Positions 166 to 24,590 of a stretch of DNA of 44,513 nt are shown here, in pieces. Origin of the DNA: Oscillospiraceae bacterium (GTDB lineage: Bacteria > Bacillota > Clostridia > Oscillospirales > Acutalibacteraceae); assembly GCA_015066465.1 (NCBI GenBank), contig SVOI01000014.1:1-44513 (forward strand). Direction: 5' to 3'. A program made the translations under genes and the position numbers. Positions within the stretch are counted from its first letter, which is position 1. Each line of letters begins with the position of its first letter. Below the pieces are notes generated by a model, which made no database searches, had not been told where the DNA came from, and saw only the letters and a list, made by a program, of their open reading frames with translations.

Positions 166-203
166 ACTGACTCACTGACCACTGACAACTAACCACTGCA
201 GAA
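166..203. repeat. Heptamer array, TGACCAC type
   Basis: Successive 7-mers such as CTGACTC, ACTGACC, ACTGACA, ACTAACC and ACTGCAG follow one another just upstream of a terminator hairpin. A weak relative of the ACTACATTC hairpin family (about 121-156) precedes it. This is the first of many arrays of this kind in the window. Confidence 0.5.
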
Positions 204-204
204 T

Positions 205-245
205 AACAAAAAACCACAGTAGCATTCGCCACTGTGGTTTTTGTT
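205..245. terminator. Bidirectional rho-independent terminator
   Basis: The 10-bp arms AAACCACAGT (211-220) and ACTGTGGTTT (231-240) are perfectly complementary and flanked by A and T runs on both sides. It begins at the stop codon of the minus-strand gene at 244-540 and would end the pheST-ireB-side transcription. Confidence 0.8.
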
Positions 246-540
246 ATTGTGCATCTTTAAGCGCTCTTTCAAGCCAAATAACGCCTATATCCATTGCAGC
301 CCAAAGACCTTTTTTCTCAGCCTTTTTAACAATAGCTTCTAATGGGTTTACGTTAGGGTCAGTATTTAAAAGCTGAACTGTAACCTTGTCAGCAATCTGA
401 ACGCCGTGAACCTCATGAGAATCTGCAATAGAGAGCATAAGTACGAAAGGGTCATTCATATCACCATAATAAAGTGTGTTGCCCTTACGAACAAGAGGTT
501 TTCCTTTATACTCGAGAAAACTTGTTTCTGATTTAGCCAA
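244..540 (-). CDS. Small conserved protein of unknown function downstream of ireB
   Basis: About 98 aa, soluble, no membrane segment or metal motif, ending ...GLWAAMDIGVIWLERALKDAQ. I recall similar proteins next to ireB in Oscillospirales but cannot name a family. The frame extends to a GTG at 549, but that codon overlaps the AAGGAG ribosome binding site. A TTG at 540 lies 7 nt after it and gives the start MAKSETSFLEYKGKPL, so I place the start there. It sits 26 nt downstream of ireB and is probably co-transcribed. Function unknown. Confidence 0.75.
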   Translation of the reverse strand: MAKSETSFLEYKGKPLVRKGNTLYYGDMNDPFVLMLSIADSHEVHGVQIADKVTVQLLNTDPNVNPLEAIVKKAEKKGLWAAMDIGVIWLERALKDAQ

Positions 541-566
541 ACTAAACACTCCTTAGTTATTGAAGT

Positions 567-812
567 TTATGAATTAAGATATGTTTTGAGAAGTGCTTGT
601 AAAAGTTCGTCTCTGTCAATCTTACGAATTAAACTTCTTGCATTGTTGTGAGTTGTAATGTAGGTTGGGTCCTCCGACAAAATGTAACCTACAAGCTGGC
701 TGGTAGGGTTGTAACCTTTCTCTACAAGTGCATTATAAACCTGAATGAGAATATCTCTCATTTCCTTTTCGTGCTCATCTCTTATCGCAAATTGAATGGT
801 TTTATCTGTCAT
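567..812 (-). CDS. ireB: IreB family regulatory phosphoprotein (UPF0297)
   Basis: An 81-aa protein that begins [20 protein letters not shown] and contains the family pattern of a helical N-terminus followed by [20 protein letters not shown] and [16 protein letters not shown]. The length matches the family. In Enterococcus, IreB is a small substrate of the IreK Ser/Thr kinase and affects cephalosporin resistance; in most Firmicutes the gene lies near alaS and ruvX. Here it instead follows pheT (95 nt gap). AGGAGG lies 8 nt before the ATG. The Thr residues near the N-terminus (T2, T5) are candidate phosphosites by analogy. Confidence 0.9.
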
Positions 813-907
813 AAGAACACCTCCTATAAAAATTATATTTCTATTATAAACTATTATAAAGAAAATTACAACAGTAAATTATTAAGAAATTTCGACAAAT
901 AATTAAA

Positions 908-3271: not shown

Positions 3272-4347
3272 TATTTACCCTCCTTTTCATCATCAACAAA
3301 GGTTCTGTTAGTAAATTGTGAAAGTGATTTTAAGCTACAGCTGTTAAATACACGAATGTCTTTAATGCCATAACGCATCATTGCAAGTCTTGTAAGACCT
3401 AAACCAAAAGCAAAGCCTGTGTATTCTTCAGGGTCAATGCCACCCATTGAAAGAACGTTAGGGTGAATCATACCGCAAGGGCAGAGCTCAAGCCAGCCTG
3501 AACCCTTACAAGATGGGCAACCGTCACCACCGCAGATAAGGCATTGAATATCAAGCTCAAAGCCAGGCTCAACGAATGGGAAGAAGCCAGGTCTTAAACG
3601 AACTGTAACATCACGGTTAAATACTTCTGAAAGCATAGTTTTCATAAAGTAAATAAGGTTTGAAATAGAAATATCTTTATCAACCATAATACCTTCCATC
3701 TGGAAGAATGTGTTTTCGTGACAAGCGTCAATTTTTTCATTTCTGAAACATCTGCCAGGGAAAATAACTCTTATTGGTCTACCAGCTTCAAGCTCTTTCT
3801 TATATTTAATAAGAATAGCGTTCTGTGCTGCAGAGGTGTGAGTTTTTAAAAGCTGATTTGAGCTTAAGTAGTAAGTATCCTGCATATCACGTGCTGGGTG
3901 ATGCTTTGGAATATTAAGTGCTTCAAAGCAGTGGTAATCGTCAACTATTTCATCATAGTCTTCAATTGAAAAGCCCATTCCAGCAAAAATATCTTCAACC
4001 TCTCTCTGAACGAGAGTAATTGGGTGATATGAACCTTTATCTTCATTAAGTGGGAAAGATACGTCATAATCTTCAGCAGAATTAATAAGAGCTTCTTCTT
4101 CTGCCTTTTTGATTTCTTCATTTTTTTCTGTAAGTGTTTTTTCAATGAATTGTTTTACTTCATTGATAATCTGACCAGCTTCTTTTTTCTGCTCATTAGG
4201 AATGTTTCTTAATTCGCTCATAAGAGAAGTAATAGGGCCTTTTTTACCGAGGAACTCAATTCTTAATTGTTCGAGTTCAGCTGAAGAAGAGGCACTATTT
4301 ACTTTTTCTAAAAATTGTTCTTTTAAAGCGTTAGCGTTTTCAAGCAT
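3271..4347 (-). CDS. pheS: Phenylalanine--tRNA ligase alpha subunit
   Basis: 358 aa from the ATG at 4347 (MLENANALKEQFLEKV), which has GGAAG about 8 nt upstream. The frame stays open to 4569, but that extension is encoded by a structured repeat and is not part of the protein. An N-terminal coiled coil (about 1-90) is followed by the class II core: motif 2 around RNEKIDACHENTFFQMEG and motif 3 in AFGLGLTRLAMMRYGIKDIR. Motif 3 has Thr where I expect Glu in many PheS proteins. A Cys-rich insert (CLICGGDGCPSCKGSG) resembles that of other Clostridia. Controlled by the T-box at 4672-4918. Confidence 0.97.
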   Translation of the reverse strand: MLENANALKEQFLEKVNSASSSAELEQLRIEFLGKKGPITSLMSELRNIPNEQKKEAGQIINEVKQFIEKTLTEKNEEIKKAEEEALINSAEDYDVSFPLNEDKGSYHPITLVQREVEDIFAGMGFSIEDYDEIVDDYHCFEALNIPKHHPARDMQDTYYLSSNQLLKTHTSAAQNAILIKYKKELEAGRPIRVIFPGRCFRNEKIDACHENTFFQMEGIMVDKDISISNLIYFMKTMLSEVFNRDVTVRLRPGFFPFVEPGFELDIQCLICGGDGCPSCKGSGWLELCPCGMIHPNVLSMGGIDPEEYTGFAFGLGLTRLAMMRYGIKDIRVFNSCSLKSLSQFTNRTFVDDEKEGK

Positions 4348-4389
4348 TTTAGTTCTTCCTTTCAAAATATATATGATAGGGTAGGGTAG

Positions 4390-4666: not shown

Positions 4667-4671
4667 AGACA

Positions 4672-4918: not shown

Positions 4919-4924
4919 TAGTGT

Positions 4925-4953
4925 ATTTTAACATAATACCATTTAAAATGCAA
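4925..4953 (-). promoter_or_regulatory. Promoter of the T-box-pheST operon
   Basis: The -35 TTGCAT (4948-4953) and -10 TAAAAT (4925-4930) are separated by exactly 17 bp on the minus strand. Transcription would start close to 4918, just ahead of Stem I of the T-box. Confidence 0.7.
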
Positions 4954-4964
4954 GAGTTTTTTTA

Positions 4965-5148
4965 GTGCTGAGTGCTGAGTGCAAAGTGCTGAGTTTCGGA
5001 AGCCTTACGGCTTGATTATGATTATAATTATATATATAGAGTAATAAAAACTACATTCTCTCATTTTAATTTACCTTAAATGAAAGAATGTAGTTGTTTT
5101 TAATTGTATTTAATAGCGTCGCAGACCCACAACTCAGCACTCAGCACT
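4965..5148. repeat. Mosaic intergenic element 1 (GTGCTGA heptamers, small hairpin, ACTACATTC terminator hairpin)
   Basis: The order is a heptamer array of GTGCTGA type (4965-4993), TTTCGG plus the small hairpin AAGCC-TTAC-GGCTT, an ATTATAATTAT tract, a long hairpin (5051-5066 with 5078-5093, one mismatch, flanked by A and T runs), the tag AATAGCGTCGCAGACCC (about 5112-5128), and inverted heptamers TCAGCAC (5133-5148). The two heptamer arrays are complementary to each other. The long hairpin would terminate the pilin gene (minus strand). Confidence 0.75.
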
Positions 5149-5157
5149 CTAATTCAA

Positions 5158-5610: not shown

Positions 5611-5687
5611 AACTGAACCCCCTAAATTTATATTGCGAGAATGTTTTGAGCTGTAAGCGAAACTTTTCCGTAACTCTCTGCATCTTC

Positions 5688-5716: not shown

Positions 5717-5816
5717 GAAAAAACATAAATGTTTATAACTTTTGTTAAATTTTGCCAAATCGCAATTTTCTCATTTGTTTTATATATATAATAAATTCTG
5801 GGAAAATGTTAATATA

Positions 5817-6146
5817 ATGCAGAATTCAGAATGCAAAATGCAGAATTGGGGAAGGCTATTGAGCATTGAGAATTTTGAGGCTACGCCGTAATTATAATAA
5901 TTGTTGTAACAGTTAATTTATCTTTTCGTTTCTACTGATTATATATTGAAAAAATTTAATATTAAAACTATAAAATACATAATAAAAATTCTATCATTTA
6001 AAGTTATTGCAAACTAAAAATGATAGAATTCATTTTATAAAACAATATTTATAATCAAGTCCGAAGGACTTCCGAAATTATGCATTATGAATTGTGCATT
6101 CTGCATTCTGCATTCAAAATATTAATTCGCTCTGCGAATTAATATT
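5817..6146. repeat. Mosaic intergenic element 2 (GCAGAAT heptamers, TTCTATCATTT hairpin, stop-spanning hairpin)
   Basis: About 300 bp without a gene. It opens with GCAGAAT-type heptamers (5817-5847) and closes with the inverted ATTCTGC type (6079-6115). Between them lie small GC-richer hairpins (AAGTCCGAAGGACTT at about 6057-6071) and a long hairpin with arms AATTCTATCATTT (5987-5999) / AAATGATAGAATT (6018-6030). A second hairpin, AATATTAATTCG (6118-6129) / CGAATTAATATT (6135-6146), covers the stop codon of the beta-helix gene and would act as its terminator. Confidence 0.7.
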
Positions 6147-8295
6147 TTATTCTTGTTCCCGCTTCATATTCCCACGCTTCAAAGCCTGTGTTAAATGCAG
6201 GGGAGTCAGAGTTTAATTTGAAATTACGGTTTTCTGCATCCTTAAAGTTAGGGTCAGCAAATACACCATTGTTATAATAACCACGTTTTTGCATCTTTTT
6301 AACTGAGATATCACTGTTAGAAAAAACCTTTTCTCCGTTTTCGTAATCCCAGTAAAGATTGTTATTATCAATAAACCAATCTTCATCAACGGCGTTATCA
6401 TACATAGCTTCATTGTTGCCGACTAAAATGTTGTTATAAAGGAAAAGTGAGTTGTGTTCTTCTTGTCTTGTAATAAGCATCTGACCATCATCACTGAAAG
6501 CAAAAATATTATTTTTAATTAAGTTGTCTTTACCATAGTGCTGATGAAGTGAGTTAGAAGAGCAATCGTAAACAAGATTCTTTTCAACTGTTATGTAGCT
6601 TGAGCCTTCGTCAAGGTAAACACCCCAGCCACCGTAGCCTGTGCTACCCTCGTAGCAACCAACGTTGTGAATAATGTTACCGCTTAAAACTGTGTCTGGT
6701 TGAATGCCGAGAGTGTAAATACCACCCATATCAGAAAGCCAGCCGTTACCGATATTATAAATTAAGTTGTTTTGTACTTTGATATTATTAGTTGGGTTAT
6801 CAGTGTATCCCCAGTTCCAACCAACAGAAACTGCTGTGTACCAGCCATCGTGAATTTCATTATAAGTAATATCACAATCAGTAGCGTGTGTAATAAGCAC
6901 ACCAATAGAGTTATTATAAATTCTGCCGTAATATTTTATGTGGCAGTCTGTAACGTCAATATTGCTTGTTTTTGCTGGTATTACAAATGGACCATCAATA
7001 AAAATTGCGTTACCGCCAATCTGGTCAAATAAACAACTTGAAACTGCCGAATCCTTTGAGCCTACATCATATTTAATTGCTGTGTTAGATATATTTTTGA
7101 ATTCACAGTTTATAAAGTTAATACTGGAAGAATTTGTAATGTAAATTGAAGCAGGTGTTTCAAATGCAGCCTGTGGGTGAGTTGGATTGTATTTGATTTT
7201 TGCGTAAAGCGGATGCTCTGTATTAAGAGATGAGTTCCACTTTGTACCTGAAACAAAATCCCAGTCAGTATTTTTAAAATCAATACCACTGAAGGTAATA
7301 TCAGAAGCACCATTTATGTTAAAAAAGCTTTCTGTTACAGGAGCAGAAAGTGTAAGACTCTCTGCAGTTTCGCCCTGTTGTGGAATGTAATAAAGCTTTT
7401 TCTCTGTTCTGTCAAGATACCATTCACCTGGTTCTGTTAAAGCTTCTCTTACGTTTTCATAAACGAAGTTGTCACCAACCTCAATTGTCATAGCAGCAGG
7501 TTTTGTAAGTTCAACTCTGCCGGTATTTGGGTCAGTAGAATGAAGTGGAAGAATATCATCGCACCACTTGTGCAAAATTCTTACGTTAACGTCAGAAAGA
7601 TTTTTGAAATCTCTTACTTTGTCTGTGTAAAAAGCAGCGTGTAAATCAAAGAAACCACTTTCGTTATCAAGGTCAAATGCATCTTCATCCTTAGCATCTG
7701 TAACTGTGAAACAACCTGTTTTTGGCCATTTACTGATAGAAAGTCTTTCATCACCCTTAAAAAGTGAACGGAAATAAAGGCTGTCAGTGTCAACGTCTGT
7801 AACAAAAGCTTTTGTTGCATTAATTATTGTAGGAGTCCATTCTGTGAAATCAACTGAACCGGTAAATATAACTTCTTCGTCAGGATATGAGCGATATGTA
7901 ACGTTACTGCAGTCAGAAGAATCAAAGCTTAATTCTTCAGTGTATAAATACGTGCCACTTCTGAACCATACAGTTATTTCTTCATTTGTAACACCCTTTA
8001 AGGCTTTTAATTTTTCTTTAGCACCTTTAAGTGTTTTTAAAGGGCTTTCGAGTGAGCCTTTATTAGCGTCATTACCATCTGGTGAAACAATTAAATCATA
8101 TTTTCCCATTTTAAATTTACCTTCATCAAATTCAACCTGTGTTATAGTTGTGTTATGAAAAACATTGTTTTCAGTGCCACCAGTATTAGCGTCATTATTA
8201 TCAACGCTTGGTGGTGTAGGTGAAATTGAGCTTATAAGCGTAATAAGTGAAGCTATAAGCGAAATCACGGTTTTTAAAATTACAGATACATCCAT
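6139..8295 (-). CDS. Secreted right-handed parallel beta-helix protein (pectate-lyase-like fold)
   Basis: 718 aa. A hydrophobic N-terminus (VILKTVISLIASLITLISS) looks like a signal peptide or anchor, followed by a Thr/Asn/Pro linker. From about 68 the segment YDLIVSPDGNDANKGS matches the DUF1565-type opening of beta-helix proteins. From about 330 many short repeats (ITFSGIDFKNT, INFINCEFKNIS, SAVSSCLFDQIGG, IKVQNNLIYNIG) form the coils of a right-handed helix. The C-terminus (NFKLNSDSPAFNTGF) is typical of such proteins. A polysaccharide lyase or glycan-active role is likely, but no catalytic set is identified. GGGGA precedes the ATG by about 7 nt. Confidence 0.85.
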   Translation of the reverse strand: MDVSVILKTVISLIASLITLISSISPTPPSVDNNDANTGGTENNVFHNTTITQVEFDEGKFKMGKYDLIVSPDGNDANKGSLESPLKTLKGAKEKLKALKGVTNEEITVWFRSGTYLYTEELSFDSSDCSNVTYRSYPDEEVIFTGSVDFTEWTPTIINATKAFVTDVDTDSLYFRSLFKGDERLSISKWPKTGCFTVTDAKDEDAFDLDNESGFFDLHAAFYTDKVRDFKNLSDVNVRILHKWCDDILPLHSTDPNTGRVELTKPAAMTIEVGDNFVYENVREALTEPGEWYLDRTEKKLYYIPQQGETAESLTLSAPVTESFFNINGASDITFSGIDFKNTDWDFVSGTKWNSSLNTEHPLYAKIKYNPTHPQAAFETPASIYITNSSSINFINCEFKNISNTAIKYDVGSKDSAVSSCLFDQIGGNAIFIDGPFVIPAKTSNIDVTDCHIKYYGRIYNNSIGVLITHATDCDITYNEIHDGWYTAVSVGWNWGYTDNPTNNIKVQNNLIYNIGNGWLSDMGGIYTLGIQPDTVLSGNIIHNVGCYEGSTGYGGWGVYLDEGSSYITVEKNLVYDCSSNSLHQHYGKDNLIKNNIFAFSDDGQMLITRQEEHNSLFLYNNILVGNNEAMYDNAVDEDWFIDNNNLYWDYENGEKVFSNSDISVKKMQKRGYYNNGVFADPNFKDAENRNFKLNSDSPAFNTGFEAWEYEAGTRIKY

Positions 8296-9230: not shown

Positions 9231-9575
9231 ATGTCAAAAGGTAAAATTGCTTTAATAACACTTGCTTTTGTTGCTATAACATTAGTAGTACCTTTACTTT
9301 TATTATTAGCTTTAGTAGATGCAAACAGCTTCAGTGTTTACATTGTTGTTTTCGGAACAATGTTCTTTGGTTCAATAGGCTTCTTGTTTGCAATGCTTCT
9401 TAAAACAAAAGCAGATATAAGAGAAATGGTTGATGAAATCAAAGTTCAGAACGCCGCTATTGCTTTTAAATTAACAGAAATGAAAAAACAAGGCGGACTT
9501 CAGCAAACAACTCCAGTAGAACCAAAACCAATGGTAAAAACTGAGGTTAAAGAGAAGTTTGATGACTTTAATTGA
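9231..9575 (+). CDS. Small two-TM membrane protein, unknown function
   Basis: 114 aa from the ATG at 9231, which has GGAG 10 nt upstream; the ATG at 9222 is too close to that site. Two hydrophobic helices (IALITLAFVAITLVVPLLLL and VYIVVFGTMFFGSIGFLFAM) are followed by a charged helix (KTKADIREMVDEIKVQNAAI) likely to coil, and a flexible tail. It starts one base after the isomerase stop. Its own stop TGA runs directly into a heptamer repeat array. Confidence 0.75.
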   Translation: MSKGKIALITLAFVAITLVVPLLLLLALVDANSFSVYIVVFGTMFFGSIGFLFAMLLKTKADIREMVDEIKVQNAAIAFKLTEMKKQGGLQQTTPVEPKPMVKTEVKEKFDDFN

Positions 9576-9870
9576 ATGCAGAATGCATAATGCAGAATGC
9601 AGAATTTCGGAAGCCTTACGGCTTGGTTATAATTGATACGTATAACAAAAACTACATTCTTTCATTTGTGTTTTAATTGAAAGAATGTAGTTGTTTTATA
9701 CTATTAAAATTCTGCATTTCAAAAAACGCCTCTCTTCGAAGAGAGGGGGACCATCGCTTGCGATGGTGGAGAGTTCTTCGCCACGAGTAAAATTCCAAAA
9801 TTGCAGTCAGTCGGTGGAAAAATTAATTAACTCCCACAACCGTAGGGGCTTAAGCTTGCTCTCGCGCTAT
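9574..9870. repeat. Mosaic intergenic element 3 with extra hairpins
   Basis: GCAGAAT heptamers (9574-9606) begin at the stop codon of the upstream gene. Then come CGG-AAGCC-TTAC-GGCTT, and a hairpin with perfect 14-bp arms ACTACATTCTTTCA (9651-9664) / TGAAAGAATGTAGT (9678-9691) with A and T flanks. Next are an inverted heptamer remnant, the palindrome CCTCTCTTCGAAGAGAGG (9729-9746), a second hairpin ACCATCGCTTGCGATGGT, and a GTAGGGG-CTTAAGCTTGCTCTC motif (about 9843) related to the tandem repeat at 33413. No gene is seen here. Confidence 0.75.
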
Positions 9871-11333: not shown

Positions 11334-12218
11334 ATGGGTTTTATATTTAAAGAAAAAATAAGAGATGCATTAAATTATAATGCATTTAAAAAATGGATTG
11401 ATGAGCAAATTACCAAACACGGCTTAGATGACGTTGTTGCATTAAACTTTACTCTCTGTGAAAATGATAGTAAAAAATGGTTTGTTGAACTTGTAGGCAC
11501 ATTCGTATTTTGGGAGAGTGATTCGGATTGGGTTCATTATGAAGTTTTTGATACTCGTGATATTCCTTTTACAATTAAATATAGTGGTGATTCTGATGAA
11601 GTACGCTCTGTTTACAAAAATTATATTTTAAAATACCTTGAATACGGTAATTATAGCGAACAGTTAAAAAACAAAGCGTGCGTTGGATTTTCATTTACAG
11701 ATGGCAATATAGAACTTCTTCACAAGACCCAAAATTTCAAACTACCAAAATCTATAAGTCAATTCCCTTATGTTCAGCCAATGGATGTAAATATGCTGAT
11801 AGAGGTGGTGCAGACTTCTATTGGTACTAACAGAAATTTCAGACTTACCAATAGACAAGATCATCATAAAGTAGTTGAACAAATTAACAAAAAGATTGCA
11901 GGAATATTAGACGGCAAACCATTTCCAGAGGCATATGAAGATATTGAAGATGTAGCTGTTGCTTTTGGTGCAAGGTATGGTTACGCTTTTTATCAGGAAC
12001 GCAAGTGGAAGTGGATGATGGTTGGAGAGAATAAAGAAACTGCACAGGTTTGTATTGCTTCGCCTAAGTTAAATTACTGTATTTTCCCACTTACTTATAT
12101 GCTTAGTATTCTCAAGGGCGAGCACGAGAACAACGCTTTACTATTATGGAATATGACTGAAAATATTGATGATAACCCTATACGCAAAGATGATAAAAAA
12201 TTGTCGGCACTTTCATAA
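11334..12218 (+). CDS. Conserved protein with a DUF3806-like C-terminus
   Basis: 294 aa, soluble, no signal peptide. The N-terminal half (MGFIFKEKIRDALNYN...) has no recognised family. The C-terminal third (VAVAFGARYGYAFYQERKWKWMMVGENKE then YCIFPLTYMLSILKG) resembles DUF3806, a domain found in multidomain proteins sometimes tied to polymorphic toxin immunity; that link is only from memory. TAGGAG lies 9 nt upstream of the ATG. About 200 bp before it (11128-11333) holds no gene I can see. Confidence 0.6.
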   Translation: MGFIFKEKIRDALNYNAFKKWIDEQITKHGLDDVVALNFTLCENDSKKWFVELVGTFVFWESDSDWVHYEVFDTRDIPFTIKYSGDSDEVRSVYKNYILKYLEYGNYSEQLKNKACVGFSFTDGNIELLHKTQNFKLPKSISQFPYVQPMDVNMLIEVVQTSIGTNRNFRLTNRQDHHKVVEQINKKIAGILDGKPFPEAYEDIEDVAVAFGARYGYAFYQERKWKWMMVGENKETAQVCIASPKLNYCIFPLTYMLSILKGEHENNALLLWNMTENIDDNPIRKDDKKLSALS

Positions 12219-12228
12219 AATGAAAATA

Positions 12229-12306
12229 CTAACAACTAAAAACTAACAACTAAAAACTAACACCTAACAACTGTGACCTAACACTACAAATGTAGTGTTA
12301 GGTCAC
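12229..12306. repeat. AACTAAM heptamers plus 16-bp perfect hairpin, overlapping a gene end
   Basis: Heptamers AACTAAC and AACTAAA alternate from 12229 to 12272. They are followed by a hairpin with 16-bp perfect arms, GTGACCTAACACTACA (12273-12288) and TGTAGTGTTAGGTCAC (12291-12306), with a 2-nt loop. It separates two converging genes and encodes the last residues and stop of the minus-strand one. Confidence 0.75.
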
Positions 12307-13486
12307 TTGTCGCATACGACACACACGGGTGAATAATGCCGTGAGAAGTGTCTGAAATTCTTCTTGAGTCAGTTCCTTCTGGAATAAACACGTTTCCTCT
12401 TGTAAGTCTTGCTTTACAAAATCCGCAAGAACCAACTCTGCAATGTGAACGTGCTTCTATTCCAGCTCTTTCGAGTGCTACTAAAATAGTCTCTTCACTA
12501 TTACACGGAATGGTTTTTAAAACCTTTCCGTCTTTTTTTACTCTGAGTTCAAAGGTCTTACCTAAGAATTCAGGGGGAAAATCGGGGATTAATTTAGCCT
12601 CTTTATTTTTACTACCAATGTTAAGTCTTATATCTTTTCTCTCTAAACCCAATTCTGCAATCTGTGTAGAAATAAGGCTTAAAAGCTGTTCTGAGCCGTT
12701 TATAAATACGCTGTATTTTTCTGGTGGTGCATATTTTTCAATTAATTGCTTTGTGATAAAACCACGCTCGTAATTTTCTACCTTTTCATCGCTGAAAACA
12801 AATACGATATTAAAGTTTTTTGTGGTTTTACTTATTTCAATAAGCTCATCCATAAAGAGTGCATCTTGTTTTTTACGGCAACTGTAAAAGAGGGTAAGTT
12901 TTACGTTTAACGATTTTTCTTCAATAGCTCTTGCCATAGATAAAAATGCTGGAATTCCTTCGTTATCAGTAGCACCAACTAAAAATGGGTTGTCTCTTAA
13001 AACCTGGTAATAAAAATTACCGAGTGGCTGTGAGGCTACAACCTCAGAGCCTTTTTGCCAGTTGTTAAAAATGTAATTTGAAGCAAACCCGTGCATAACC
13101 TTTTTAACTTTTATCATATAAAAGTCGTCGTTACTTGAGTCAAGGGGAGATGAGCAGATTGTAAAAGGTCTTGTGAGAACCGATTGCCCAATGTTAAGTG
13201 TAATACTCAAGTATTGCCCAGGTCTGAAATACGCTAACTTTCCTGTGCCGTGAGCAGAGTCGGGGTAAAGAACGTAGCAACGCTCATCTCTCGAAAGTTC
13301 AATTACTTCTCTTATTTTTAAATATTGCACCTGTGGGTGAAGAAAATTTGCTGTTGAGTTAACGTTAAAATTTTTCCTTACAGGTGTTTTAAGCGCATTG
13401 TTAATAGCATTTTTTCTTGCTTCTGGAATTCTTATGAATTCAGAAAAATCTTTTGAGGGGGAATGAACGCTTACTTTTTCTTTCAC
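12284..13486 (-). CDS. Flavodoxin-reductase-like protein with C-terminal 2Fe-2S ferredoxin domain
   Basis: 400 aa. An FAD-binding barrel (about 50-155) carries RPFTICSSP, a ferredoxin-reductase FAD motif. An NAD-binding-like fold (about 165-290) follows, and a plant-type 2Fe-2S domain ends the protein with Cys349, Cys354, Cys357 and Cys388. The usual glycine-rich NAD loop (GGSGITP) reads GATDNEGIPAF here, so pyridine-nucleotide binding may be altered. Starts with GTG overlapping the TAG of the upstream gene (TAGTG), with GGGGG before it. Likely passes electrons to the partner desaturase. The last six residues (DLTLHL) are encoded by a repeat hairpin. Confidence 0.88.
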   Translation of the reverse strand: MKEKVSVHSPSKDFSEFIRIPEARKNAINNALKTPVRKNFNVNSTANFLHPQVQYLKIREVIELSRDERCYVLYPDSAHGTGKLAYFRPGQYLSITLNIGQSVLTRPFTICSSPLDSSNDDFYMIKVKKVMHGFASNYIFNNWQKGSEVVASQPLGNFYYQVLRDNPFLVGATDNEGIPAFLSMARAIEEKSLNVKLTLFYSCRKKQDALFMDELIEISKTTKNFNIVFVFSDEKVENYERGFITKQLIEKYAPPEKYSVFINGSEQLLSLISTQIAELGLERKDIRLNIGSKNKEAKLIPDFPPEFLGKTFELRVKKDGKVLKTIPCNSEETILVALERAGIEARSHCRVGSCGFCKARLTRGNVFIPEGTDSRRISDTSHGIIHPCVSYATSDLTLHL

Positions 13487-15039
13487 TATTTAACCCCCTT
13501 ATCTTCTTTTTCTATATCATAAAGTGTGGCGTAGCAAGTGTTTCTGCCAGAAGCAATAGCAGAATGAACACCAGCACCCTGTGTGCCGAAGCCACCGCAA
13601 AATCTTAAACCCTTTGTGTCAGAGTCGCTTTCTTCTGTCATAAAACGAGAAAGCATATTGTCAGTGGTGTCAGTAGAGTAGCCGTAAATTACGCCTTGAG
13701 GTGTGTTTAAATATCTTGCAAAGGTTAAAGGTGTTGCAATTTCTAATTCTTCAATATTTTCGCTTATTTTAACCCCACAAGAGTCCTCATAAAGCTTTAT
13801 AATACGTTTTGCAAAAGCATCTTTTTCTTCAAAATAGTTTTCAGGGTCAATATTAGCCCAGCAGTTTTCTGTAAAAAGTGTAGTAAACGTAAGAATTGCA
13901 GTGCCCTTAGGTGAAGCCTCTGGGTTTATAGCGTTAAGGCAAGATACTCTACACATATTGTTACTGCTTAAAGTTCTCATTAAATCATACTGAACAGAAG
14001 AGTCAGCACTTTCTGTAATAATTGTGTTGCAGTCGGTTATGCCTAAATCGTTCATAGAACGGTTTAAACCAACGTAAATAGCGGCACCTCTTGCACCAAA
14101 TGTTCTCATATTACTTCTTTTTGTTGCAGTAACAGGCACGTCAGTTGCTTTCATCATTTTTGAATATGCAAATGTAGGTGAGCAGTTTGCAATAATGTGA
14201 TTGCAAAGTATTTTTTCGCCATTACTTAAAATAACGCCTTTTGCTTCGTTGTTTTCAAAAATTATTCTTGCTACTTCTGAACCTAACCAAATCTGACTGC
14301 CGTTATCTTCAATGAAACCAGCGAGTGTAAGCGCAATTTCACTGCTTCTGTTTTTTGGCACGTAGCCACCAAATTGAATATAATTATAAAGTGTGAGAAT
14401 GTATTCCGTAAAGCTTAATCTGTCACAGTCTACGCCGTGAAAAATCCATAAAGAAGAAAGAATTTCACGTGCTCTTTGTGGTATGTTTAAAGCTGAGAAA
14501 ACTTCGTTTACTGTGTAAGGCGCAGTCCTTACAAAATTGCCGTACTCTTTTAAAAGATTTTTAGCAAAGCTCATATTGATTTTTTCTTCAGTAGCACAAA
14601 GATGGTTTATTCCATCAACAGTAACTTCTGCTACGTCAAAAAGCTTTTCTAAAGAAGCAGTGCTCTCTGGCACGTATTCTTCCATAGCTTTTATAAAGTT
14701 TTCAATGCCAAAGGGGAGAGTGGCGTCAATTTTTTCGCCGTTTTTAGATTTTGTAATTACTCTGAATGCAGTAGGTAACTTGCACCATTCAATTTTGTTA
14801 GAAATACCAAGTTCATCAAAAATAATGCGCACGTCACCAACACCTTGCGTGTTTGAATACCCGCAAAGTGAGTGTAAAGAAGCTTCAAATTCAAATCTGC
14901 CACGTGTAAAGCTTGTTGCACTACCGCCTGGTGTCAGATTTCTTTCTAAAACTAAAACTTTTTTGCCATTCTTGGTAGCACAGGCAGCAGCCGTTAAGCC
15001 ACCAAGCCCTGCACCAATTACAATAATATCAAAATCCAT
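13486..15039 (-). CDS. Phytoene-desaturase-like FAD oxidoreductase
   Basis: 517 aa. The N-terminal dinucleotide-binding motif IIVIGAGLGGLTAAACATKNGKKVLVLER and GGSATSFTRGRFEFE are typical of CrtI/retinol saturase-like enzymes, as is the C-terminal RFCGGFGTQGAGVHSAIASGR FAD loop. No carotenoid biosynthesis gene is present, so carotenoid desaturation is not implied. The enzyme may reduce or isomerise a conjugated C=C bond in another lipid or polyene. Its stop overlaps the start of the iron-sulfur reductase gene by one base, which argues that the two work as an electron-transfer pair. Substrate unknown. Confidence 0.88.
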   Translation of the reverse strand: MDFDIIVIGAGLGGLTAAACATKNGKKVLVLERNLTPGGSATSFTRGRFEFEASLHSLCGYSNTQGVGDVRIIFDELGISNKIEWCKLPTAFRVITKSKNGEKIDATLPFGIENFIKAMEEYVPESTASLEKLFDVAEVTVDGINHLCATEEKINMSFAKNLLKEYGNFVRTAPYTVNEVFSALNIPQRAREILSSLWIFHGVDCDRLSFTEYILTLYNYIQFGGYVPKNRSSEIALTLAGFIEDNGSQIWLGSEVARIIFENNEAKGVILSNGEKILCNHIIANCSPTFAYSKMMKATDVPVTATKRSNMRTFGARGAAIYVGLNRSMNDLGITDCNTIITESADSSVQYDLMRTLSSNNMCRVSCLNAINPEASPKGTAILTFTTLFTENCWANIDPENYFEEKDAFAKRIIKLYEDSCGVKISENIEELEIATPLTFARYLNTPQGVIYGYSTDTTDNMLSRFMTEESDSDTKGLRFCGGFGTQGAGVHSAIASGRNTCYATLYDIEKEDKGVK

Positions 15040-15065
15040 AAAACAACTCTCAAAAAAATTATTTG

Positions 15066-15776
15066 TTAAACATTCTTATCGTCTGTTGCTTCACCTGGTG
15101 AAGAAATAGGAATAACTTCACCTAAATAAGTAGGCTCAGGTTTTATTATGCACCAAATAAAGTCTTTGACTCTCGCTAAAAACTCACGTGAATCATTATA
15201 AAGCTCTTTTGTGAGTGCAAAGTTATAATAACCATCTGCACATACGCCGTAAGCTTCAAGACCTAACTTTCTTGCATCATAAATCGCTCTGTATAAATGA
15301 TACTCCTGCGTTACGATTATTAAACTTTCTACTTCGAAAATTTCTCTTGCTCTGTACATAGATTCATAAGTAGAAAAACCGGCGTGGTCCATTAAAATGT
15401 TTGTAGCAACTGCACCAGCCTCATCTATTGCGAATTGCTTCATAGTGTTAACCTCGTCATAGTCTTCTCTTCCGTGGTCACCACTCATTAAAATCCTATT
15501 GGTGCAACCAGTGTTAAAAACTTCTACACTTTTAAAAATTCGCTCTTGTAAAATATGGGTAGGAGCACCGTCTCTTACACCAGCACCTAATACTAAAACG
15601 CAGTCTACATTATAGTTTTTAGTTTCTTCAACAGTTAATACATATCTGTTTGCATACTCGTAAACATAAGCGTTAATGAGAATAGGTATCTGCGCTAATA
15701 TAATACCCATAACGATAATAAAAGATATAAATTTCTTCAATTTGTTTTCTTTGTTTTTTACTCTTTTAAATTCCAT
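15066..15776 (-). CDS. YdcF/SanA-family (DUF218) membrane-anchored protein
   Basis: 236 aa. One N-terminal membrane helix (FISFIIVMGIILAQIPILI) puts the rest outside. The DUF218 core follows: DCVLVLGAGVRDGAPTHILQERI, ILMSGDHGREDYDEVNTMKQFA, STYESMYRAREIF and VTQEYHLYRAIYDARKLGLEAYG. In E. coli relatives (SanA, ElyC) affect envelope integrity and vancomycin sensitivity; the biochemical role is unknown. Ends 26 bp before the desaturase gene on the same strand, so it may be co-transcribed. Confidence 0.88.
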   Translation of the reverse strand: MEFKRVKNKENKLKKFISFIIVMGIILAQIPILINAYVYEYANRYVLTVEETKNYNVDCVLVLGAGVRDGAPTHILQERIFKSVEVFNTGCTNRILMSGDHGREDYDEVNTMKQFAIDEAGAVATNILMDHAGFSTYESMYRAREIFEVESLIIVTQEYHLYRAIYDARKLGLEAYGVCADGYYNFALTKELYNDSREFLARVKDFIWCIIKPEPTYLGEVIPISSPGEATDDKNV

Positions 15777-15897
15777 AACAAAATTCCTCTTTATTTATTG
15801 CATATTAATACATATAAGATTTTACACTAATAAATTAAATAAATCAACAGAATAATAACATAATTTGGTAATTTTTAATTTAATCTTAATAATATCA

Positions 15898-15926: not shown

Positions 15927-15966
15927 TGAGTAAACACTCACTTTTTGTATTGTAAGGAGATAAAAA

Positions 15967-16662: not shown

Positions 16663-16673
16663 TAGGTGATAAA

Positions 16674-17828: not shown

Positions 17829-17830
17829 AT

Positions 17831-19462: not shown

Positions 19463-19480
19463 TGGAGTGAATAATCAATT

Positions 19481-20788
19481 ATGATTCCATTAATTAAAGA
19501 TAAAAAAGTTTCAGAATACACTTCTGCATATTCTTCAACACTCTGGCTTTTTGAAAACGTAGAAAAGCAGGAATATTTATCACACTTAGAGGATATTAAG
19601 GCGAAAGGCTACAAAGAAGCCTACAAAACAGATATTGAAGATAATTTAACGTCTGTTTTCGAAAATGGCGAAAATCTTATTATTAGCTCTTTCTACCCGT
19701 GTGATAACACTGTAAGAACAGTTTTAGAGAATAACAAAAATCTCCCCGAATTTAAAATGAGGGAAGCTTTAGAAAGAAACTCACAAACAACACTTTGGCA
19801 GTTTGAAGTTGACCATTCTTTAATTGATTGCGGTATGTGTTACATAATCCGTACTTGTGATGGCTCATTCTTCATAATAGATAGTGCCCACACTTACTCT
19901 TGCCGTGATGACGAAAGAATTCACTCCTTTTTAAGAGAAAGAACTCCAAGGGGCGAAAAAATAAGAATTGCTGGCTGGTTTTTCAGCCATGGTCACGATG
20001 ACCATATAACACAATTCAAAAACTTTTTGCTTTATCACTCAGACGACGTAATTATTGAAGGTCTTTACTTCAATTTCCCAACGTACGACCACAGAGATGC
20101 TGGGGAGTGGATGGGTGCAGGTGAGGGTTATGTTAATCAGTTCAGAGCGGCAATTAAGAAAAGACCTGATATACCTGTTTACACACTCCATTCAGGCGAA
20201 ACTTTCTACATAAGAAACTTGAAATTCAATGTACTTTGTTCACACGAAGATGTGTTCCCGAAATCAAATGAAAATTATAACGATTCTTCAGTTGTTTTAA
20301 TGATGACTGCGGAAAATACAAAAGTATGTTTCCCAGGAGACGCTGGTCACGAAGAAAGCTATATTTTAGAGAATCGTTATAAAAACGGCTACTTGAAGTG
20401 TGAAATTATGCAGTCAGCACACCACGCTCATTTTGGTACAACACCTGAATTTTATAAAATGACAAATTCAGAAGTCGCACTCGTGCCATCAACACAAATT
20501 ATGTATGATGGTGACTTGCCTCGGTACGAAGCAACAAGAGTTATGACAGATATTGCAAAATATCTCTTTATCGCTTCAAATGGTACTGTTGAAATTGACT
20601 TGCCATATAAAACAGGTGAATTTAAACTCCACCCCGACGAAACGTTTGAAAACTTCCAAGGCATAAACAACCTCTGGAATTATGAATACACAAACGAAAG
20701 AAAAGCACAGCTTTATAAAGAGTACCGTTCTCGTGGTGGTAAGGTGATTGAAGAATACGAAAAAATGCTGAATGCTGAGACAAAATAG
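19481..20788 (+). CDS. MBL-fold metallohydrolase
   Basis: 435 aa. The metallo-beta-lactamase signature HGHDDH sits at 170-175, later ligands in VCFPGDAGHEES and QSAHHAHFG. The N-terminal 100 residues are not typical of short MBL enzymes and may be a family-specific cap. No signal peptide. Eighteen bases after the phosphatase gene, with TGGAG upstream, so likely the last gene of this operon. Its end (KMLNAETK) is written by two ATGCTGA heptamers, and the stop TAG abuts a longer heptamer array. Confidence 0.87.
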   Translation: MIPLIKDKKVSEYTSAYSSTLWLFENVEKQEYLSHLEDIKAKGYKEAYKTDIEDNLTSVFENGENLIISSFYPCDNTVRTVLENNKNLPEFKMREALERNSQTTLWQFEVDHSLIDCGMCYIIRTCDGSFFIIDSAHTYSCRDDERIHSFLRERTPRGEKIRIAGWFFSHGHDDHITQFKNFLLYHSDDVIIEGLYFNFPTYDHRDAGEWMGAGEGYVNQFRAAIKKRPDIPVYTLHSGETFYIRNLKFNVLCSHEDVFPKSNENYNDSSVVLMMTAENTKVCFPGDAGHEESYILENRYKNGYLKCEIMQSAHHAHFGTTPEFYKMTNSEVALVPSTQIMYDGDLPRYEATRVMTDIAKYLFIASNGTVEIDLPYKTGEFKLHPDETFENFQGINNLWNYEYTNERKAQLYKEYRSRGGKVIEEYEKMLNAETK

Positions 20789-21047
20789 TGCTGAGTGCTG
20801 AGTGCAAAGTGCTGAGTTTCGGAAGGCTATGCCTTGATTGTAATATTTGTAGCAGTGGTTAGTGAGTCAGTAAGTCAGTGGTCAGATATTAGTTTAAAAA
20901 CTTAAAAAAGTTCTATCATTTTCGTAAACTGAAAATGATAGAACTTTTTAATTTTTACAATATTATAATAGCGTCGCAGACCCTTCATTCTGCATTTTGC
21001 ATTCTTAATTCTGCATTTCAAAAAACGCCTCTCTTCGAAGAGAGACG
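20765..21047. repeat. Mosaic intergenic element 4 (heptamers of three types, AGTTCTATCATTTTC terminator, CTCTCTTCGAAGAGAG palindrome)
   Basis: GTGCTGA-type heptamers (20765-20817) straddle the upstream stop codon. Then come CGG-AAGGC-TAT-GCCTT, TGACCAC/TAAGTCA-type heptamers (20852-20886), and a hairpin with 19-bp perfect arms (20905-20923 with 20931-20949). The tag AATAGCGTCGCAGACCC, ATTCTGC heptamers (20986-21018) and a 16-bp palindrome (21029-21044) follow. The long hairpin would end the upstream operon. No gene is seen here. Confidence 0.75.
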
Positions 21048-21083
21048 TTTTGTGTTAGCTAACTCGTTCTACCAACAAAACTA

Positions 21084-21112
21084 TTGATAAATTGGAAAAA
21101 TTATGCTAAACT
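21084..21112 (+). promoter_or_regulatory. Promoter of the LRR-dockerin gene
   Basis: The -35 TTGATA (21084-21089) and -10 TAAACT (21107-21112) have a 17-bp spacer, about 34 nt before the start codon; AGGTGGGG precedes the ATG. Confidence 0.6.
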
Positions 21113-21146
21113 CAAGGTGTATTTAATTTAAAATAGGTGGGGTAAA

Positions 21147-24100
21147 ATGAAATTTTGTGTTAAAGCATCACTAAAAATATTGGTTTCAATTTTTGGATTG
21201 GTTAGTTTGCTTTTTATTAATGTATTTGCAACTTCCGATTCGGGGTATGATGTTGTTAGAGAAGAATTGGGAGGAAGTTACGGTTACATTATTCCGACTG
21301 ATGAAAAATTAGCTGCTCAGGCAAATAACTATTCATTCTCAGGTGATTTTGCTGATTTCTATTTTATGGTTTTTAGTTCTGGAAAAGAAAACTCAAGTTA
21401 CAATATTGAGATATATTCTTCAAACGACTATAATAACGATTCAATAGTATATAGCTATACGAGTGCCTACGGAGAGAAGGGGACTACTCCAATAAATTTA
21501 AAATGGGAGTTTGATGGCTTGGCATCTGGCTGTTATTATGGCAAGTGCTACACTCAGATAACATCAGAAGGTGCTATAACAATTGATACGTCTTCTATAT
21601 GTACTTTTGACATTGATATTAATCGTGATTATCTTACGTTTGAATTACAAAATGATTGTTATGCAATAATAGATTGTGTTAATAATATAACAGGAACAGT
21701 AGAAATTCCAGATGTATACAACGGATTACCAGTAACAACTATAGGTTCGTATGCTTTTAGTGGTTGTAAGAATCTAACCAGTATATTAATCCCCAATAGT
21801 ATAACAAATATTCAATCTTCAGCTTTTGAAAATTGCACTAACATTACCAACATATCAATACCTTATAGTGTTCAAAGTATAGGTTCCTCGGCATTTAATA
21901 ATTGTATTTCACTTGAAAGTGTTGTGGTTTTACCTGGTGTAAAAAGTATAGGGGAAGATGCTTTCAGTAACACAGCATATTACAATGACAGTAATAATTG
22001 GGAAAACGATGTTTTATATATAGGGAATTATTTAATAAAGGCAAAAGATACAATTTCAGGTGAATATGAAATAAAAGATGGTACTAAAATTATTGCTGGA
22101 AATGCTTTTTACGATTGTAATATGCTCACAAGTATATCTATTCCAGACAGTGTAACCAGTATAGGTGAGAGTGCTTTTGGTTATAAAAAAGATTTAATCT
22201 TTACTGTTGTTTACGATTCGCATGCATATCAGTATGTTAAAGATAATGGGTTTAAGTATACAGATAAAACATCAACATATCCTGTTAGTGATTTGGGATT
22301 TGAATTGAATGATGATGGTAATTCCTACAGCGTTTACATTGAGTCGTATTATTTTGGTAACAATATTAGCACTAAGTTGATTGTACCGAGTGAATATAAT
22401 GGTTTGCCTGTAACAAGTATTTTGGGTTCTGATTTTTATAATGAGAATATTATTAGTATTACAATTCCGAATAGTATAAATAATATAAGTGAGGATGCTT
22501 TCAATGGATTCACAGCATTAAAAGAAATAATTGTTGATGAATCTAATCCTAATTATTTAAGTGTAGATGGTGTTTTGTTTAATAAGGATAAAACTGCACT
22601 TCTTTGTTATCCACGAGAAAAAACAGATATTGATTATGTTATCCCAGATAGTGTAACGAGTTTGGATGAAGGTGTATTTAGGGGTTGTGATTATCTTAAA
22701 AATATAACTATATCCAATAGTGTGACGAGTATTGGTGCAGAAACTTTTGTTGGATGTAGTTCTCTTGAAACTGTAAATATCCCTGAAAGTGTGACATATA
22801 TAAATATTGGCGAGGGTTTTCAAACTTCACCTTTTAGCAATTGTACATCATTAAAAGAAATAAATGTTGATGAATCTAATCCTAATTATTCGAGTATAGA
22901 TGGTGTTTTGTTTAATAAGGATAAAACTGCACTTATTTCTTATCCGATTGGAAAAAAGGCGGATAGTTATGTGGTTCCTGATACTGTAATATATATATCA
23001 CGTTATGCTTTTAACGGTTGTTTATATTTAATTAATATAACTATATCAAAAAGTGTACGAAGTATAGGTATGGAGGCTTTTGATTGCCATTCACTTGAAA
23101 ATGTTTATATTACTGATATAAAAAACTGGTGTTTAATAGATTTTGAGCCTGAATATCGTGGGGTGAGTGGTGGCCATACTACAGGGAATTGTATGGGTAA
23201 TCCAATGTATTGTGCAACCAATTTATTTTTAAATGATGAATTAGTAACAGAAATTGTTATTCCAGAAGGCATTACAGAAATTAAAGATTATTCCTTTTTC
23301 GGTTTTGATTCGTTGAAATCTGTGACAATTACAAACGGGGTAACTGAAATAGGTACAGGAGCTTTTGAGGGGTGTTCATCATTAGAAAAAATAACAATTC
23401 CTGAAGGGGTAACCTATATAGGAAGCTGGTCATTCGATGGTTGTAAATCCCTTAAAAGTATAAATATACCTAAAAGTCTAACAACTATAGGAGTAAATAC
23501 TTTTGGGAATTGTGTTTCACTTGAAGCTGTTTATATTACTGATATTTCAAATTGGTGTAGTATTGATTTCTATGTAGATGAATTTATTTCTAATCCATTA
23601 TATTATGCGAATAATTTATATTTGAATGGCGAATTGGTGACAGAGTTAGTAATACCAGATGATGTTACAGAAATAAAACGTAATGCATTTTGCAATTGCA
23701 CCTCACTGATAACGGTAACAATCCCAGACAGTGTAACGAGTATAGATTATTCTGCTTTTGAAAATTGCAGTTCTTTAAAATATGTGTTCTACACAGGTTC
23801 CTCAACTGACTGGAGTAGTATCAGTATTGGTAGTAATAATTCACCACTTACTTCTGCAAAAATCCACTACAATGCAACTGGTCACTCACATAGTTGTTCA
23901 ATAAAAAATGCCCCTACAGAACAAGAAAATGGTAAAGCTATTGATACTTGCCCAGTTTGTGGTTTCATTAATGGTGAAGAAACTCTCGTTTATGTAAACA
24001 ACCACATAACCGCAGTTGACACTAAAAATGTAGTTGTTGATACAACAAGCAACACATTACTTTTAGATGTGTCCGCTTGTAAAGATATTAACGAAGCAAT

Positions 24101-24416
24101 AGTTGAAATGGATGGTTACACATTAACCACAACACCAACTTCGAGTTATGGTTTTATTGGTACAGGCTCAAAGGTGCAAGTTGCTGACTCAACTGGCACC
24201 CAAGTTGCAGAATACACATTAGTAGTCCGTGGTGACGTCAATGGCGACAGTGTCTGCGATGCACTTGACTTAATGCTCATAGAACTTGCAAGGCACGAAA
24301 GCAACAACGTAACACTCGAAGGTGCATATTTTGCCGCCGCTAATTTAGCAGAAGATAGTGAAATTAACATCGACGACTTCAATGCGGTAGTAAATAAAGC
24401 AGTGGCTTTGGCGTAG
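21147..24416 (+). CDS. Secreted BspA-type leucine-rich-repeat protein with C-terminal dockerin
   Basis: 1089 aa. The signal peptide (LKILVSIFGLVSLLFINVFA) is followed by an N-terminal beta-rich domain (about 35-165). Many LRR_5/BspA repeats run from about 170 to 900, with the motif IP.SVT.IG..AF..C.SL. Two near-duplicate inserts (VDESNPNYLSVDGVLFNKDK and VDESNPNYSSIDGVLFNKDK) lie inside. A Cys pair (DTCPVCG) comes before the end. The last 60 residues are a type I dockerin: GDVNGDSVCDALDLMLIELA and a second Ca-binding half with INIDDFNAVVNKAV. It should attach to a cohesin scaffold or cell-surface anchor and bind a host or substrate ligand. Confidence 0.92.
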   Translation: MKFCVKASLKILVSIFGLVSLLFINVFATSDSGYDVVREELGGSYGYIIPTDEKLAAQANNYSFSGDFADFYFMVFSSGKENSSYNIEIYSSNDYNNDSIVYSYTSAYGEKGTTPINLKWEFDGLASGCYYGKCYTQITSEGAITIDTSSICTFDIDINRDYLTFELQNDCYAIIDCVNNITGTVEIPDVYNGLPVTTIGSYAFSGCKNLTSILIPNSITNIQSSAFENCTNITNISIPYSVQSIGSSAFNNCISLESVVVLPGVKSIGEDAFSNTAYYNDSNNWENDVLYIGNYLIKAKDTISGEYEIKDGTKIIAGNAFYDCNMLTSISIPDSVTSIGESAFGYKKDLIFTVVYDSHAYQYVKDNGFKYTDKTSTYPVSDLGFELNDDGNSYSVYIESYYFGNNISTKLIVPSEYNGLPVTSILGSDFYNENIISITIPNSINNISEDAFNGFTALKEIIVDESNPNYLSVDGVLFNKDKTALLCYPREKTDIDYVIPDSVTSLDEGVFRGCDYLKNITISNSVTSIGAETFVGCSSLETVNIPESVTYINIGEGFQTSPFSNCTSLKEINVDESNPNYSSIDGVLFNKDKTALISYPIGKKADSYVVPDTVIYISRYAFNGCLYLINITISKSVRSIGMEAFDCHSLENVYITDIKNWCLIDFEPEYRGVSGGHTTGNCMGNPMYCATNLFLNDELVTEIVIPEGITEIKDYSFFGFDSLKSVTITNGVTEIGTGAFEGCSSLEKITIPEGVTYIGSWSFDGCKSLKSINIPKSLTTIGVNTFGNCVSLEAVYITDISNWCSIDFYVDEFISNPLYYANNLYLNGELVTELVIPDDVTEIKRNAFCNCTSLITVTIPDSVTSIDYSAFENCSSLKYVFYTGSSTDWSSISIGSNNSPLTSAKIHYNATGHSHSCSIKNAPTEQENGKAIDTCPVCGFINGEETLVYVNNHITAVDTKNVVVDTTSNTLLLDVSACKDINEAIVEMDGYTLTTTPTSSYGFIGTGSKVQVADSTGTQVAEYTLVVRGDVNGDSVCDALDLMLIELARHESNNVTLEGAYFAAANLAEDSEINIDDFNAVVNKAVALA

Positions 24417-24422
24417 TTGCTG

Positions 24423-24590
24423 GCTATTAGTTATTAGTTGTTAGTTATAAAAAGTTCTATCATTTTCGTAAACTGAAAATGATAGAACTTTGTTCTTCGT
24501 ATTCAATTATAATCAAGCCGTAAGGCTTCCTTAACTCAGCACTTTGCACTCAGCACTCAGCACTAATTTGACCACTGACCACTTCTGCAG
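24423..24590. repeat. Mosaic intergenic element 5, extending into the tlpA-like coding region
   Basis: TAGTTAT-type heptamers (24423-24448) are followed by a hairpin with 17-bp perfect arms (24451-24467 with 24475-24491; about 42 nt identical to the one at 20905). The inverted small hairpin AAGCC-GTAA-GGCTT follows, then TCAGCAC heptamers and TGACCAC heptamers up to about 24590. It separates converging genes and runs about 40 bases into the reading frame of the minus-strand one. Confidence 0.75.

Follow-up and report, generated by a model that had tools for sequence, protein, structure and literature searches.

Dispersed heptamer-array elements with hairpin tips and terminator-like cores at gene ends of an Oscillospirales genus

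Introduction

The 44,513-nt stretch of DNA analysed here as a whole, referred to as the window, is contig SVOI01000014.1 of an Oscillospiraceae bacterium (GCA_015066465.1; contig C50 of draft genome G000, 2.53 Mb, 80.6% complete). Several intergenic regions of the window are occupied by elements which are composed of arrays of 7-nt repeats, short hairpins adjoining these arrays (array and hairpin together being referred to as a tip) and, in most cases, a long central hairpin. A previous reading of the window, based on the sequence only, had regarded six such sites as dispersed elements that stop both translation and transcription. Here, we argue that they are probably mobile cassettes of a non-autonomous type. 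For comparison, 22 genomes of one Oscillospirales genus and 38 genomes outside the genus were used; the nearest named relatives, as judged by one protein, are uncultured Oscillospiraceae, Ruminococcaceae and Clostridia genomes, several of which are from goat and deer gut. Most stretches were picked around element hits, and the rates of occupancy given below are thus no genome averages. Genes were called by a simple script taking the longest open reading frames (ORFs). One 20-kb stretch of genome G011 shared blocks of more than 4 kb at 84-88% identity with G000, G001, G018 and G021, and a 5.6-kb block at 74% identity with G008. As the element-bearing genomes are at least 12% apart in the main blocks compared, insertion points can be placed approximately rather than to the base.

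Results

Elements within the window

Period-7 arrays are present at all six sites of the sequence-only reading, most of them with a tip, and all six are located at 3' ends of genes, as had been stated. The proposed common set of parts was borne out to a lesser extent, as the parts differ between sites. Coordinates are given with a strand where a part is oriented, and without one for elements as a whole. Element 2 (4960-5152) starts with an array on the plus strand (4964-4994) consisting of two AGTGCTG units, AGTGCAA, AGTGCTG and AGTT, followed by the tip hairpin AAGCC-TTAC-GGCTT (5000-5013, plus strand), which is preceded by TTTCGG. The central hairpin ACTACATTC..GAATGTAGT (5050-5094) lies between an A tract on its left and a T tract on its right and is terminator-like in both directions, and the right tip (5112-5149, minus strand) comprises AATAGCGTCGCAGACCC, which on the minus strand forms the hairpin GTC-TGC-GAC, and an inverted GTGCTGA array (5132-5149). 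AATAGCGTCGCAGACCC, which had been taken for a separate tag, is the reverse complement of a tip and corresponds to the right-hand tip of the element read backwards. The latter lies 8 nt from the stop codon of a pilin-like gene. Folded as RNA, element 2 reached -65.5 kcal/mol, compared to -35.3 kcal/mol for shuffled sequences (z -7.9).

The gene 6139-8295(-) is followed at its 3' end first by a hairpin and then by element 3 (5816-6115), which has GCAGAAT-type arrays at both ends (5816-5846 and 6077-6115), a central hairpin at about 5988-6030 and the tip hairpins GGC-TAC-GCC (5879-5887) and AAGTCC-TTC-GGACTT (6056-6070). The GCAGAAT array of element 4 (9574-9718) at positions 9574-9605 overlaps the stop codon 9573-9575 and is followed by the hairpin AAGCC-TTAC-GGCTT (9611-9624) and a central hairpin (9651-9691), while only a remnant of the right array is left at about 9708-9718. 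Site 5 (12228-12306), located between convergent gene ends, consists of an AACTAAC-type array (12228-12272) that lacks the CGG-preceded tip hairpin and of a palindrome (12273-12306) extending into the last codons of the gene 12284-13486(-). The letters of this palindrome vary among the window and its orthologues in G001, G011 and G018, and the arms remain complementary. In element 6 (20787-21017), a GTGCTGA array (20787-20817; the site had been given as 20765) overlaps a stop codon and is accompanied by the hairpin AAGGC-TAT-GCCTT, a central hairpin at about 20910-20944, and a right tip with GTC-TGC-GAC and a GCAGAAT-type array (20986-21017). Element 7 (24425-24564), again between convergent gene ends, has a TTAGTTA-type array without a CGG hairpin on its left side (24425-24448), a central hairpin (24452-24490), a tip hairpin within 24511-24530 and a GTGCTGA array (24534-24564). 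Apart from these six sites, the right part of an element (122-198) is found near the 3' end of the gene 244-549(-); it consists of the terminator-like hairpin ATTCATTT..AAATGAACGAATG and an array (166-198) with the minus-strand words AGTGGTT, AGTTGTC and AGTGGTC, and is without a tip hairpin.

A further dispersed hairpin family, ACGCCTCTCTTCGAAGAGAGG, in places accompanied by GGTGGAGAGTTCTTCGCCACGAG, adjoins elements at 9719-9786 and 21024-21052 of the window and at about 11700-12400 of stretch L164. The window also contains 2.9 perfect repeats of the 31-bp unit GTAGGGGACGAGCTTTGCTCTCCCGCAAGTA (33413-33503), similar pieces of which occur elsewhere in the genome, and an ordinary T-box leader (Rfam RF00230; 4692-4921) upstream of phenylalanyl-tRNA synthetase genes.

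Heptamer arrays and tip structure

At one threshold, nine period-7 arrays and seven arrays of the double period 14 were counted in the window, and at most one for each of the other periods from 4 to 15. In 21 stretches of G000 (429 kb), 69 arrays had period 7. Periods 4-6 and 8-13 were represented by 0-6 arrays each, the double period 14 by 48 and period 15 by 11. Period 7 reached 84, 32 and 16 arrays in stretches of G011, G018 and G001, respectively, and two in 11 stretches (197 kb) of relatives without elements. With period 7 far above the other periods and a mostly intergenic location, the arrays are heptamer simple sequence repeats. Their commonest words are AATGCAG, AGTGCTG and AAAATTG, none of which has G tracts.

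In a tip, an array of most often 31-33 nt (about four heptamers) is followed by GG, by a hairpin of 3-6 bp whose loop reads TNC on one strand and GNA on the other, and by TTATAAT; array and hairpin are often separated by TTCGG, TTGTGG or TTAAGG. A census of about 169 arrays, read on both strands (338 array-strands) in stretches of five genomes and counting hairpins with three or more base pairs and no mismatch, identified GG plus hairpin directly 3' of the array in 112 cases, compared to 4.8 in mononucleotide shuffles. The loop was TNC or TTAC in 108 of these 112, TTRTA or TTACA followed the hairpin in 96, and the length of the adjoining array peaked at 32 nt (39/112; 31-33 nt in 67/112). The stems occurred in 13 versions, four of them once each, with AAGGC/GCCTT, AAGTCC/GGACTT, GTC/GAC, GACC/GGTC, AAC/GTT and AAGCC/GGCTT being the commonest. 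Stems of 13 versions with near-constant loops strongly indicate that the hairpin is maintained while its letters change. When four short oligonucleotides were folded as DNA, the expected stem was obtained for the AAGGC type (both strands) and the AAGTCC type; the 3-bp GTC type did not form its stem.

Additional tips may be stacked towards the outside of an element, whose left and right halves may bear different words. A rule that both ends carry the same word was rejected, since permutation of the facing pairs revealed a tendency only (same-word pairs compared to permutation: G000, 6/12 to 2.8; G011, 8/17 to 4.2; G018, 3/4 to 3.2; G001, 0/1). Inverted tips usually enclose a terminator-like hairpin, and the elements measure about 140-300 bp. 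When facing pairs with element-type stems were collected from four genomes, 30 of 38 spanned at most 190 bp. Among the 27 facing tip pairs of G000 and G011, 22 enclosed a central hairpin, which in 16 was bordered by a preceding A tract and a following T tract; some cores are thus without a terminator. Accordingly, the stable hairpin and T tract of an intrinsic terminator are present in many cores and absent from others. The elements further display the inverted pair of short palindromes with spacer that forms the hairpin of a REPIN (a doublet of repetitive extragenic palindromic (REP) sequences), and, being short, non-coding, bounded by inverted terminal repeats and present as copies at unrelated loci, they share these features with miniature inverted-repeat transposable elements (MITEs).

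Placement at gene ends

Elements had been proposed to be dispersed and concentrated at 3' ends of genes, and the larger sample agrees with this view. From 99 array clusters in stretches of four genomes, only two were located inside predicted ORFs. Where both neighbours were known (93 clusters), 39 clusters lay between convergent, 51 between tandem and three between divergent genes, the latter compared to 22.2 expected from intergenic base pairs (P = 4.5e-8), and 37 of the 51 tandem clusters were nearer to the 3' end. In the element-bearing genomes, 89 of 171 arrays resided at a distance of -25 to 50 nt from the 3' end of a gene, and the array start fell within -3 to +4 nt of the end of the stop codon in 32 of 127 cases.

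Distribution, copies and orthologous sites

A pattern describing the hairpin end was found in five of the 22 genus members (G000, 43; G001, 17; G011, 49; G018, 23; G021, 17) and in none of the other 17; outside the genus it occurred once in each of five of the 38 genomes. One tip pattern was absent from 393 further genomes of the order, and three AGTGCTG units plus two bases were absent from 397 further genomes of the phylum; both samples were without other genus members, and both searches were confined to that one word or hairpin. Element 2 had no plasmid match, and two hairpin-end patterns were absent from viral contigs.

With alignments taken from 110 bp and 85% identity upwards, 18 linked element pairs were obtained in G000 and 45 in G011 (40 of the latter are listed, the top two listed being one locus fetched twice). 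The clearest examples match from outer array to outer array at unrelated loci: L003:968-1161 and L161:9655-9848 of G000 (96% identity over 194 bp), and L038:9489-9687 and L215:5063-4865 (94% over 199 bp) as well as L189:7498-7748 and L190:9340-9090 (94% over 253 bp) of G011. Orthologous sites devoid of an element, as had been predicted, do exist, as the gene end that corresponds to 5816-6115 has no array in G001, G011 and G018. At one operon junction, the genes abut in G000 and G008, one element is common to G011 and G018, and a different one is present in G001. The copies of G011 and G018 are identical at 171 of 180 aligned bases and differ in addition by one gap of exactly 7 nt. The end of the gene terminating at position 20788 bears an array in all five genomes, with the words AGTGCTG, TAGGTGT, AATTAAA, AATTGAA and AATTCGT (two of which differ by one letter), and none in G008 and G013. 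Shared, empty and differing orthologous ends together imply turnover on the one hand and inheritance or hot spots on the other.

The shared junction element (G011 L189:10623-10791; G018 L266, about 12012-12147) is 95% identical compared to 85-88% in the larger flanking blocks, for which conservation, conversion or transfer are alternative explanations.

On stretch L176 (G000:C18), elements with GTGCTGA arrays are located inside several repeats of a type VI-D CRISPR array (about 14250-15880), at the same left position and in some cases with an inverted partial copy of the repeat at the right flank. The adjoining gene (L176:15874-19299, minus strand) was assigned to Cas13d of a type VI-D CRISPR locus by PADLOC; in its product, the Cas13d match (residues 119-1138) is preceded by what appears to be a cold-shock domain at the N terminus (Pfam CSD, residues 12-62).

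Arrays of AGTGCTG and of AATTGAA were each found on nine viral contigs, those of AGTGCTG being of varied G+C content, and three scrambled control words had arrays on one, four and seven contigs. A universal heptamer lexicon was therefore rejected, as recurrence on viral contigs does not demonstrate that words are shared across phyla. The viral arrays mostly had 4-5 rounded units (arrays below about three units being missed at the threshold), and the nearest 3' end of a gene was -25 to 50 nt away in 14 of 41 (AGTGCTG), 18 of 35 (AATTGAA) and 13 of 47 (controls) cases. One contig found with a control word, L229, contains seven period-7 arrays with the words AGTCGTG, AGTCGAA, CGACTCC, ACTTCCG and others.

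Search for a mobilising enzyme

A search for Y1 transposase domains (PF01797) identified proteins of about 250 amino acids resembling REP-associated tyrosine transposases (RAYTs) in four genomes (G006, G011, G018, G020), as well as a partial protein of this type in G049. RAYT-like genes are thus present in two of the five element-bearing genomes, and also in G006 and G020, where the pattern used detected no elements. The search returned none from G000, G001 and G021, each a draft of about 81% completeness in which a single gene can be missed. Weak PF01797 matches in G000 and G015 look, by eye and with no search of them made, like AraC-type regulators. All four RAYT-like genes (L178, L179, L180 and L181) are flanked on both sides by GGGGACGGTTCT repeats within 450 bp, and no tips were seen within these flanks. 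The GGGGACGGTTCT(A/G)TG palindromes constitute a separate repeat family of the genus. The RAYT-like protein had no sequence match in the PDB.

A larger, autonomous version of the element was sought in about 920 kb of stretches and not found. The more widely spaced facing tips enclose the window's pilin-like gene, a DUF6809 gene (L170), a Band-7/TPR cluster (L188) and ABC transporters with an HTH gene (L194). The genes scanned there had no Pfam transposase match, and two of them had no match at all.

Discussion

By comparing sequences within and between genomes, our analysis demonstrates an element of defined anatomy that is preferentially placed at gene ends, with copies at unrelated loci, empty orthologous ends, one shared orthologous element and differing elements at the same end. 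We consider it probable that these are non-autonomous, REPIN/MITE-like dispersed cassettes, which spread as units and persist at gene ends with a two-way terminator-like core. Such an element comprises one or more inverted tips per side around a core, usually with a long hairpin, and would spread within a genome as a unit bounded by its outer arrays. Copying might occur by transposition acting on the hairpins, presumably mediated by a trans-acting enzyme, and the array words and hairpins may later be swapped, stacked or altered by 7 nt through recombination and slippage. Many of the elements carry two-way terminator-like hairpins, and the central hairpin is, from its structure, likely to terminate transcription. 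Persistence mainly at gene 3' ends would be expected because nothing is broken there and a two-way terminator is possible, and the cassette may thus be tolerated, perhaps even useful, at these positions.

Several observations argue against mobile cassettes. No enzyme was found, and in about 920 kb of stretches no recognisable transposase is located between facing tips; by eye, the flanks of the elements have no consistent target-site duplication. Many other element alignments stop inside the elements, as gene conversion would produce. Furthermore, 14 of 78 orthogroups are occupied in at least two genomes, compared to a permutation mean of 9.2 (23 of 2000 permutations being as high), and the words differ in 27 of 32 occupied orthologous pairs, which suggests hot spots or resident elements that are remodelled in place. 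Arrays of the same general kind in Xanthomonas and Nostoc were reported to have no general link to mobile elements and an increased regional stability (PMC4692102). In line with the shared occupancy and the alignments that stop inside elements, the elements might instead be ancestral, resident terminators which became flanked by heptamer arrays born from slippage and whose ends are kept alike in each genome by gene conversion. The gap of exactly 7 nt between the copies of G011 and G018, the free mixing of words and hairpins and the published attribution of the bacterial heptamer excess to slippage (Mrazek 2007, as cited in PMC4679880 and PMC4692102) fit this scenario as well. However, the clearest copies at unrelated loci match array to array, gene ends free of elements, including abutting operon genes, occur within the clade, a length peak at 31-33 nt is not expected of free slippage, and elements are also found inside CRISPR repeats. 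Resident terminators are, thus, the strongest competitor of mobile cassettes and, in our view, still a rather unlikely one.

If the elements are mobile, REPINs moved by the RAYT-like Y1 transposase of the genus would be an obvious candidate, given the inverted hairpin pairs, the absence of a visible target duplication and the gene of about 250 codons in G011 and G018. Yet RAYT-like genes reside in two genomes without elements by the pattern used and were not found in three drafts with elements, they adjoin the different palindrome GGGGACGGTTCT, and among the listed tip hairpins, all identified by their preceding GG, none was seen next to a GTAG/CGTC tag. This makes the RAYT-like enzyme, which had been considered as the mover, a very improbable one. 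We regard it as similarly improbable that four heptamers act in the mRNA as a 3' untranslated region element which binds a protein or regulates decay. The gene-proximal array is in sense orientation near the stop codon and element 2 folds strongly as RNA, as would be expected in that case, but the tip at 20986-21017 also faces the 5' side of the next gene in a tandem pair, and the word at the same gene usually differs between species, unlike a specific binding site. The least credible of the explanations is that the arrays insulate translation by supplying stop codons in three frames after each gene, as originally proposed. Words with TGA or TAA do have this property, and 43 of 127 occupied gene ends have every frame closed within 45 nt, compared to 151 of 722 unoccupied ones (21/127 and 64/722 within 30 nt). 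However, GCAGAAT is among the commonest words and is free of stops. All three sense frames are closed by only 40 of 115 arrays (35%), whereas word-shuffled, re-tiled arrays close all three in 64% on average; 28 of the arrays leave every frame open.

If mobile cassettes are the correct explanation, gene ends may be places where terminator-like cassettes are gained and exchanged. The preference of bacteria for 7-nt repeats has been an open question since at least 2007 (Mrazek, as cited in PMC4692102). As the heptamers described here belong to a delimited element, which has copies and empty orthologous sites and is found in five of 22 genomes of one genus, this question becomes testable.

Similar arrays have been described in other phyla, while no equivalent from Firmicutes or Clostridia was seen among the publications listed in our literature search. 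Xanthomonas and Nostoc possess mostly intergenic GGGAATC or GGGGA(C/T)T arrays with a preference for four units; downstream arrays are mostly situated on the coding strand at most 50 bp from stop codons, convergent pairs were counted in 70 (Xcc) and 75 (Xac) cases, few arrays lie between divergent genes, and mostly the same gene pairs carry arrays of varied sequence in the two Xanthomonas species (PMC4692102). The number of units, the mostly intergenic location, the proximity to stop codons, the convergent pairs and the rarity between divergent genes resemble our findings. In contrast, the Xanthomonas and Nostoc word is G-rich, and the cited parts of that work mention neither a tip hairpin nor a terminator, whereas the elements described here have many words, often GG and a TNC-loop hairpin, a terminator-like core and are copied as units. 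The authors tied the number four to G-quadruplexes, which formed in vitro (PMC4692102). Here, about four units are similarly found near stop codons with common words free of G tracts, such as AATTGAA, AGTGCTG and AATGCAG, so that G-quadruplexes cannot be the general explanation and another reason is needed. It might be speculated, although we think this doubtful, that convergent arrays of about four heptamers at stop codons form a cross-phylum class defined by architecture, with the word free to change, to which the Xanthomonas and Nostoc arrays, those on viral contigs and the Oscillospirales elements would belong. In that case, the four units would reflect spacing needs of a mobilising or binding machinery rather than G-quadruplex formation.

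Tandem heptamers of cyanobacteria are known as short tandemly repeated repetitive (STRR) sequences. As in our elements, several different heptamers occur in tandem within one genome, three of them in Calothrix according to the report cited above (PMC4692102). TAACTGA direct repeats of Beggiatoaceae, Cyanobacteria and Bacteroidetes share the intergenic location and the patchy distribution across lineages; three-frame stops were noted for this word as well (MacGregor 2015, PMC4679880). Unlike the present elements, they consist of one word, most of its repeats precede start codons in the main genome studied, and no hairpin module is described in the cited sections. REPINs are likewise non-autonomous, extragenic inverted pairs of short hairpins with a spacer (PMC3116915), and REPs with a GTAG tag often supply the stop codon of adjoining ORFs (PMC3733652). 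From these, as they are described there, our elements differ by their heptamer-array ends, the lack of a GTAG/CGTC tag at the listed tip hairpins and the different palindrome beside the RAYT-like genes.

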